Origin: Chloroflexota bacterium
GTDB taxonomy: Bacteria > Chloroflexota > Dehalococcoidia > Bin125
Direction of reading: 5' to 3'
NCBI GenBank assembly: GCA_028874365.1
Contig: JAPPJZ010000005.1
Span: 1-61,144, forward strand
DNA: 61,144 bases
Part shown: one piece after another, positions 7,100 to 55,257 of the stretch
Layout: every line of letters begins with the position of its first letter
Numbering within the stretch: position 1 is the stretch's first letter
The notes under the pieces: generated by a model
Database searches by the model: none
What the model was told of the DNA's origin: nothing
Seen by the model: the letters and a program-made list of their open reading frames with translations, nothing else
Position numbers and translations under genes: made by a program

Positions 7100-7868
7100 A
7101 GTCCGCGTGTTCCATTCGCATGGGGATGCCGGCGGCTCGCATCTGCCGCTTGACATCCATGATCGGGTGGGTGCCGAAGTGGAAGATCGAGGCAGCCAGC
7201 ACGGCATCGGCGTTGCCGTCCGTGATCGCGTCGATCATGTGCTGCGCGTTGCCCGCTCCGCCCGAGGCGATCACCGGCACGCCGACCGCGTCCGAGACGG
7301 CCCGGGTCAAGTGGATGTCGTAGCCGTCCTGGTGGCCGTCCGTGTTCATCGAGGTCAGCATGATCTCGCCCGCGCCGCGCTCGACGACTTCCCGGGCCCA
7401 TTCGACCGCGTCGATCCCGGTCGGGCGGCGGCCGCCGTGGGTGTAGACCTGCATCGAGCCGTCGGACTCGGTGCGCGCGTCGATCGCGACCACGATGCAC
7501 TGCGAACCGAACCGGTACGCGCCCTCCGAGATCAGCGCCGGACGCTCCACGGCCGCGGTGTTGATCGTGATCTTGTCGGCGCCCGATTCGAGCATCAGCA
7601 TCATGTCCTCGTCCGAGCGCAGTCCGCCGCCCACGGTGAAGGGAATGAAGACGCGGTCGGCCGTGCGCCGCACCATATCGACCACCGTATTGCGATCTTC
7701 GTGCGAGGCGGTGATGTCGAGGAAAACGAGTTCGTCGATCCCCTCGTGGTCGTACAGCGTCGCCAGTTCCACCGGGTCGCCCGCGTCGCGCAGCTCGACG
7801 AACGAGATGCCCTTGACCACGCGGCCGTTGTCGACGTCGAAGCAGCCGATGATGCGCTTGGTCAACAT
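7083..7868 (-). CDS. hisF: Imidazole glycerol phosphate synthase, cyclase subunit
   Basis: Uses ammonia delivered by HisH to convert PRFAR to imidazole glycerol phosphate and AICAR. It is a 261-aa (beta/alpha)8 barrel, starting [20 protein letters not shown] with catalytic Asp11; the second catalytic Asp is in VVAIDART near residue 130. The phosphate-binding segments FTVGGGLRS and VIASGGAGN are intact. It starts 18 bp after hisA and overlaps hisI, consistent with one operon. Confidence 0.98.
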
Positions 7869-7886
7869 GACTCAGTCAGCATCGTG

Positions 7887-8645
7887 TCAGCACGTCCGCT
7901 CGCGCATGCCCGCTGCGGCCGCTGCGAAGGCGTCCGACAGCCTCAATCGACCGTCGTACAGCGCCCGCCCCAGCACAACCCCGGCGGCGCCCGTGGCGGC
8001 CAGACGGCGAATCTGCATCGGATGCGCGATCCCGCCCGCCGCGATGACCGGCGAGCGAGCCATGCCCGCGACGCGGCCGAACTCCGCTTCGTCGTGTCCG
8101 CCCAGCATGCCGTCCGAGGCGATATCGGTGTAGATGAAGCGGCGCACGCCGAACTCCTCGAGCTGCGTGATCAGCGCCACCGCCGGCAGCTCCGATTCCT
8201 CGGTCCAGCCGTTCAGCGCGACGCGACCGCCCCGGGCGTCGACCGAGACGGTCAGACCCGGTCCGCAGACGTCGACCGCGCGGCGCAGGAAGTCGCGATC
8301 GGTCACGGCGGCCGTGCCAACGATGATCCGCGCGACGCCGGCCTCCAGGTAGCGGCGGACGGTGTCGAGATCGCGAATCCCGCCGCCGACCTGCAGCGGC
8401 GTGCCCAGCGAGGCGATCCGCTCGACGAACTCCGCGTTCGCCGCTCGGCCTTCGCGCGCGCCGTCGAGATCGATCACGTGCAGCATCTCGGCGCCCTCGT
8501 CGATCCAGCGACGCGCCGGCGCGGTCGGATCGTCGTCGAATACGGTTTCGCGCTCGTAATCGCCCTGCACCAGCCGCACGCAGCGTCCGCCGCGGATGTC
8601 GATCGCAGGCAGGACATCGATCATGTTGGGCGCTGAAGCAGTCAT
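7887..8645 (-). CDS. hisA: ProFAR isomerase (HisA)
   Basis: Amadori isomerisation of ProFAR to PRFAR in histidine synthesis. It is a 252-aa barrel, homologous to HisF. The N-terminal [20 protein letters not shown] holds the catalytic Asp, and the second conserved Asp is in [12 protein letters not shown]. The phosphate sites are LQVGGGIRD and VIAAGGIAH. The start overlaps the hisH stop as ATGA, so translation is probably coupled. Nothing here suggests the dual-substrate PriA form of Actinobacteria, but this was not tested. Confidence 0.97.
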
Positions 8646-47288: not shown

Positions 47289-47378
47289 ACCGACCACAGG
47301 CCGACAACGAGGAGCCAATTCGGCGTCGCATCCGATATCGTTCGAGGTGCCCCACCCGCAACTCAATGGAGCCTACCC

Positions 47379-48614
47379 ATGGTCCGCATGGACGACCTGC
47401 ACCCCGACATGGCGAACAACCTGCTCAATCTCCCCCTGCCCGAGATCGAGCCCCAGCCCTGGATTACCCCCAAGCCGCTCGCCGATTCGACCGTGGCCAT
47501 CGTCACCACAGCCGGTTTGCATCCCGCCGGCGACCGACCCTTCAATCCCGGCTCCAACGAGTACCGACTCATCCCCGGCGATATCGACTACGCCGACCTC
47601 CGCATGTCCCACCTGTCCGTCAACTTCGACCGCTCCGGCTTCCAGCAAGACATCAATACGGTCTTCCCGCTTGAACGGCTGCGAGAACTCCAGGCGGACG
47701 GCGCGGTCGGCGGCATCAGCCGCTATCACTACTCGTTCATGGGCGCCCAGGCCGACCCGACCAACCTCGAATCAACCGGCGAAGAAATCGGACGCCTGCT
47801 CGCCGAAGACGGCGTCGATGCAGCCTTCCTGACACCCGTTTGACCGTTCTGCACGCGCTCCGTGTGTGCGCTCAGCCACTACATCGAACGCGGCAGCAAC
47901 GGCCGCGTCGCCACCACAGGCATCTCACTGATCCGCCGACATCCCGAAGGGATGAAACCGCCGCGTTCGCTCTGGGTACCCTTCCCCCTCGGCCGACCGC
48001 TCGGCTCGCCCGACCATCCCGACTTCCAGCGCGACGTCCTGCTCAACGCACTCCAACTCCTCGAAACCGCCACCGAGCCCACGATCGACGACTACCCCCA
48101 AGACGCTCCCATCTCAGGCGACGACCCCTGGGCCTGCGCGATCATGGTCAGCCCGCCCGAGCCCGCCGACGAAACCGAGGCGCTGCGCGATCAGCTCGTC
48201 GAAGAGATCCGCCAGCTCGCGCCCTGGCATCGCGAGTCGATCAACCGCCGTGGCCGCACCACCGTCGGAATCAGCGGCGCCACCGTCGAGCAGATGGAAG
48301 ACCTCGCCGTGCTGCTGGCCGATTTCGCCACCGGCACCGAACCCTCCGACGGTGAAATCGACTGGAATCATCCAATGCCGGCCCGCCTCAAGTTCGCCTC
48401 CGACGACCTGCGTGCCTTCTACCACGAGTCCGCCACGGCCCAGCCCGGCGCGGCCTACCCCACCGACGCCGACCTCAACGACTGGCTCTTCAACCAAACC
48501 CTGCTCGGCACCGTCCTGCGCCAGATCGTCGGACGAATGCGCGAAAGCGAAGACCGCCGAGTCTCCGGAATGGTCATCGGAATGATCCCCGCCGGCTTCG
48601 CCCGCGCCCGCTAG
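47379..48614 (+). CDS. GrdB-family (glycine/sarcosine/betaine reductase B-like) probable selenoprotein, in-frame TGA at 47841
   Basis: Two open stretches in the same frame, 47379-47840 and 47844-48614, are separated only by a TGA. Reading it as selenocysteine (residue 155) gives a 411-aa protein with LTPV-U-PFCTRSVCALSHYIE. Non-seleno relatives, as I recall the family, have CPxC at this place, so U replaces the first Cys of a UxxC redox pair. The first part has MSHLSVNFDRSGFQQDINTVFP, and the second SLIRRHPEGMKPPRSLWVPF. A hairpin at 47851-47869 (8-bp stem, 7 nt after TGA) is placed like a bacterial SECIS. The reaction is unknown. No sel genes are in the window. Confidence 0.8.
47851..47869 (+). 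promoter_or_regulatory. Candidate SECIS hairpin
   Basis: GCACGCGC, loop TCC, GTGTGTGC: eight base pairs (two G-T) starting 7 nt after the TGA at 47841-47843. The loop lies 15-17 nt past the TGA, close to the range for bacterial SECIS elements. It lies inside the coding sequence, as bacterial SECIS elements do. Confidence 0.5.
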
Positions 48615-55087: not shown

Positions 55088-55167
55088 CGTCAGTCCGCCG
55101 TTCCTGCCCCGCGTTCCGTGCAGTTCTCAGCGCAGCATATGACCCTCCCGCTGCTAATCTCGGTGGT

Positions 55168-55257
55168 GGAGGGTTCGCATAGTGGCCTAGTGCGCCCGCC
55201 TGCTAAGCGGGTTCGGGGGAAACTCCGTCGAGGGTTCGAATCCCTCACCCTCCGCCA
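55168..55257 (+). tRNA. tRNA-Ser (anticodon GCT)
   Basis: Acceptor GGAGGGT/ACCCTCC with G discriminator, anticodon stem CCCGC/GCGGG with loop CTGCTAA, a long variable arm (TTCGGGGGAAACTCCGTC region), and T arm GAGGG TTCGAAT CCCTC. CCA is encoded. At 90 nt it is a class II tRNA that reads AGC/AGU. Confidence 0.97.

Follow-up and report, generated by a model that had tools for sequence, protein, structure and literature searches.

A probable stand-alone selenoprotein related to PrdB and GrdB in a sponge-type Chloroflexota bacterium

The window analysed here is a stretch of 61,144 nucleotides, contig C78 in a draft assembly (3.12 Mb, 96% complete) of a sponge-type Chloroflexota bacterium. At 47379–48614 on its forward strand, which carries every element of the gene described below, lies a PrdB/GrdB-like (PF07355) gene of 411 codons, annotated as a selenoprotein gene from its read-through translation, its PF07355 match and its orthologs. 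The frame runs from ATG 47379 to TAG 48612–48614 and is open save for a single TGA at 47841–47843, read as selenocysteine (U155) on the basis of a TGA in 16/16 orthologs and a U/C column in relatives. A Shine-Dalgarno-like GGAG, read directly from the sequence, is found at 47368–47371, 7 nt upstream of the ATG. The read-through product contains the motif LTPV-U155-PFC158-TRSVC, where Cys158 (codon 47850–47852) is the UxxC partner of Sec155. The original prediction that two halves lie in one frame around a single TGA is confirmed by translation.

The protein can be divided into two parts. A putative catalytic α/β domain, residues 32–240 (47472–48098), is delimited by an AlphaFold model and by the match to the PrdB model TIGR04483, the best of the NCBIfam models, with 107.4 bits over residues 23–232 and an equivalog cut-off of 300 that is missed. 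PF07355 (GRDB family) scores 44.4 bits, above its gathering cut-off of 22, and all 30 aligned family members (alignment A1) match it at E ≤ 1; TIGR01918 (glycine/betaine/sarcosine reductase selenoprotein B) gives 54.4 bits, under its cut-off of 65.45, and TIGR01917 likewise falls under its own. The AlphaFold model of residues 1–244 (pLDDT 85.6, pTM 0.88) places Sec155 between strand 148–152 and helix 156–172, at the helix start. The remaining 170 residues, 241–411 (48099–48611), constitute the C-terminal region of the long form: predicted with low confidence to be mostly helical, it has no Pfam match and is confined to long-form relatives. Searching solved structures by sequence returned no significant match, and Foldseek, run with the whole model and with the N-terminal domain, returned none at E ≤ 0.001; a viral structure library likewise contained no fold match. 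The best VIA Z values, about 8 (8.3 and 8.6), belong to LacI/periplasmic-binding-type α/β folds, a resemblance that we read as a common arrangement only.

With PrdB, the window protein shares a domain of about 240 residues scoring 107 bits, Sec near residue 155 and the UxxC pair. It differs in having UPxC against UGT[GC] in PrdB, in lacking a PrdA partner gene and in its extra C-terminal region of about 170 residues. In the tree, sequences linked to PrdA group in a clade of their own (100/100) on a branch of length 2.5, with a UGT[GC]xRCG-like motif; the others read UPxC, or UGxC without that context. The window protein falls in a clade apart from the PrdBs that adjoin PrdA. From GrdB, GrdF and GrdH, subunits of the reductases that act on glycine, sarcosine and betaine (PF07355, TIGR01917/01918), it is set apart by a host genome without a match to PF09338, although it exceeds the PF07355 cut-off and has the UxxC pair as they do. 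It aligns with the C-terminal ~200 residues of the GrdB-type models and is devoid of GrdB's N-terminal ~200 residues. The original prediction was right about the UxxC pair; its reference point, a CPxC in GrdB relatives, was too simple, as GrdB and PrdB are themselves verified UxxC selenoproteins (PMC13188914).

The pyruvoyl family of PrdA and GrdE, PF09338, has no match in the host genome, an absence that is not absolute in a 96% complete draft. Across a sample of 301 Chloroflexota genomes, 72 contain a relative, and PF09338 was not found in 64 of these. It was found in 8 of the 301; each of the 8 has PrdB-like genes as well, in most cases side by side with it. The search for GrdA (PF04723) gave no match in the host genome, and none in any control genome either. 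Because no pyruvoyl-type PrdA/GrdE partner was found in the genome, the protein most likely acts on neither D-proline nor glycine but on some other molecule; it is probably a stand-alone Sec/Cys reductase and no D-proline reductase. That it decodes Sec and belongs to a PrdA-less branch we hold with high confidence, and with only a little less that its substrate is something other than D-proline. On balance, and by a narrow preference, we take this PrdA-less PrdB/GrdB branch, widespread in Chloroflexota, to be a Sec-dependent reductase of undescribed reaction.

Within the genus, the gene is syntenic with genes for thiolase-like, ChsH2-like OB-fold, malate/lactate dehydrogenase and hydrolase-like proteins, and two syntenic downstream genes look by eye like sucC and sucD. 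Comparison with the loci of distant relatives revealed no neighbour conserved outside the genus, and the neighbourhood therefore offers no pointer to the substrate; deriving the function from gene neighbours was rejected, as synteny within a genus says little and nothing is common to the distant relatives. The same comparison bears on another reading, in which the protein is the Sec half of an undescribed two-part enzyme whose carbonyl- or adduct-bearing partner is non-homologous to PrdA. The relatives PrdB and GrdB do work with partner subunits (PMC13188914), and the extra helical region of the long form could dock one; we nonetheless consider this reading unlikely, as the gene occurs in diverse genomes without a shared partner.

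Far less probable is that the gene encodes a genuine PrdB of D-proline reductase, working with a PrdA from elsewhere in the genome. PrdB is indeed the best family model, domain size and UxxC spacing are the same, and marine relatives go by the name 'proline reductase PrdB' in the literature. Against it stand a TIGR04483 score far under the equivalog cut-off, the lack of any PF09338 protein in a genome searched in the same way that succeeds in 8 related genomes, and the position of PrdA-linked PrdBs, with their UGT[GC]xRCG motif, in another clade.

Comparison of sequences makes the in-frame TGA almost certainly a selenocysteine codon. Relatives at 82–93% identity are found in Dehalococcoidia/Chloroflexota metagenome bins, and each of the genus's 15 genomes has an ortholog with the same TGA. 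These genomes hold two to five family copies each, and all 48 family genes that reach the Sec column have one TGA. The host genome has four PrdB-like Sec genes in all: the window gene and three paralogs, each with exactly one TGA aligned to U155. Each of the relatives read at the residue-155 column, about 50 from across the phylum, has either Sec or Cys. Seven relatives are Cys forms, and about three Sec/Cys switches fall on the tree, two of them forced by well-supported branches. In the 30-sequence alignment, C/U155 and C158 are both invariant columns.

Compared with the 15 orthologs, dN/dS is mostly 0.1–0.2 on both sides of the TGA, at a dS of about 0.5–1.7; a value of 0.49 for the 3′ half of L026 was excluded from use, being inflated by a 4-codon insertion that the comparison of this pair spanned. 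Retention of the TGA throughout the genus, despite near-saturated synonymous sites, is far beyond chance. The host genome encodes tRNA-Sec (selC; Rfam 70.2 bits, ARAGORN anticodon tca), together with selA (529.9 bits), selB (319.1 bits, rising to 342.5 when the adjoining segment is included) and selD (352.1 bits). These three exceed their curated cut-offs, and selD likewise contains a TGA, within CGGUGSKFG. The probable Sec codon of the original prediction is thereby supported on the three counts that could have refuted it: the presence of selA, selB, selC and selD, Cys or Sec at residue 155 in relatives, and TGA instead of TGC in many separately assembled genomes.

That the TGA is a real stop, whether in a pseudogene, through a sequencing error or between two separate proteins, is scarcely credible: its sole support is a hairpin that is not energetically special, against an identical TGA in 15 genomes of the genus that were assembled separately, purifying selection flanking it on both sides, several lineages with Cys in its place and a full Sec machinery. 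Recoding as another amino acid (e.g. Trp) or plain read-through deserves just as little credence, the relatives' alternative being always Cys and selA/B/C/D being in the genome.

A SECIS element probably overlaps the codons that follow the TGA. In windows of 17 codons, synonymous variation drops to 0.165 at codons 156–172 (47844–47894) versus 0.388 gene-wide, the lowest of 314 windows and what an overlapping SECIS would cause. Within this region, at 47851–47869, is the hairpin GCACGCGC-TCC-GTGTGTGC. Its predicted position, starting 7 nt past the TGA, holds, but the argument from energy alone is weak: its stability does not exceed that of dinucleotide-shuffled sequence (z −0.56 and −0.72). A set of 19 diverse Sec genes shows a slight excess of stability downstream, relative to the rest of the gene (p = 0.019); Cys forms look alike in the fold-energy test, with no contrast between Sec and Cys. 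RNAalifold on the orthologs gave no covariation to report, because the sequences are too alike for any to be scored, and the comparison with RNA models suggested alongside the hairpin yielded no Rfam match near the TGA. Hairpin stability was rejected as proof of a SECIS, the shuffle z-scores being unremarkable and the aggregate signal weak. The support for a SECIS is synonymous constraint, not structure, and constraint is better evidence than hairpin energy. Immediately 5′ of the TGA, codon 154 (47838–47840) is an invariant GTT (Val154) in 15/15 orthologs, while GTT makes up about 5% of Val codons otherwise in these genes; a context effect on UGA decoding is possible. GTT also precedes the TGA in both members of a tandem paralog pair described below.

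The protein is related to PrdB and to the C-terminal portion of GrdB, and probably stands alone. In the mechanism we propose, SelA, recognized by homology like the rest of the machinery, would make Sec-tRNA(Sec) with selenophosphate from SelD, and SelB would bring it to UGA 47841; an RNA element that the synonymous constraint suggests for the ~50 nt after this codon may aid the decoding. By analogy, the Sec155 selenolate would then attack a small electrophilic substrate, Cys158 would resolve the adduct through an Se–S bond, and a cellular thiol system would re-reduce the Sec155/Cys158 pair. We regard such a redox cycle as likely. A role in forming the substrate site or the oligomer is possible for the helical C-terminal region.

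The family itself is already known, and reports of oceanic Sec 'PrdB' (pfam07355, UxxC) go back to 2005. These pfam07355 UxxC selenoproteins are described as abundant in surface-ocean samples (PMC1088965, PMC2398784): as the third most abundant family of the Sargasso Sea set, with 42 genes (PMC1088965), and, with 235 sequences in GOS, as one of the most abundant selenoprotein families of ocean metagenomes (PMC2398784). They differ from the window protein in being published as proline reductase, and the sections of the two reports that deal with them mention neither a long form nor the absence of PrdA. A list from 2006 includes three selenoproteins of Chloroflexi (PMC1794560). SelA and SelB were reported for most bins of sponge symbionts (PMC5649159); the bin holding the relative L028 is listed in that study, and MPNM01000006.1 (bin125), one of the relatives at 82–93% identity, comes from it. 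The expectation of a real find in this lineage is right only in part, since PrdB/GrdB relatives with Sec and selenoproteins of Chloroflexi are already on record (PMC1088965, PMC2398784, PMC1794560). Less expected are the separate clade, the UPxC motif, the long C-terminal region and a genome with no PrdA/GrdE gene.

The ocean Sec 'PrdB' proteins are possibly of the same stand-alone kind. If the PrdA-less reductase branch is real, many marine 'D-proline reductase' genes are misnamed; if the ocean genes too are stand-alone, much marine selenium use rests on a misnamed enzyme of undescribed reaction. The genes studied here offer a testable target, occurring in both Sec and natural Cys forms and as four paralogs within a single genome.

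Some further relatives have features of their own. The short-form relative L057 (G073:C268 25774–26412) reads UPHIC, that is U-x-x-x-C and not UxxC. The tandem paralogous Sec genes L002 and L003 (G000:C59 73903–77335, listed with L070) lie near a short-chain dehydrogenase cluster, an enoyl-CoA hydratase, a Fic protein and an ADP-ribosylglycohydrolase, and a single copy, L072 in G218, is flanked by the same neighbours as this pair. At the locus of the relative L091 (G110, a chromosome of 6346587 bases), a thioredoxin gene (7827–8219) lies immediately upstream of the Sec gene, which is PrdB-like; this neighbour was not seen at the other loci.

The Sec genes of the host genome number nine or more, the four PrdB-like ones among them. 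A tRNA-Ser (gct) at 55167–55254 of the window reaches 46.8 bits against the tRNA-Sec model, just short of the cut-off of 47. Four genes of the UGSC family (L096, L097, L098 and L099, on contigs C55, C43, C80 and C67) have a TGA at the motif, which is UGGC in one of them and UGSC in the others. The context of this motif, a strand followed by U-G-x-C, recalls the PrdA-linked PrdB proteins.
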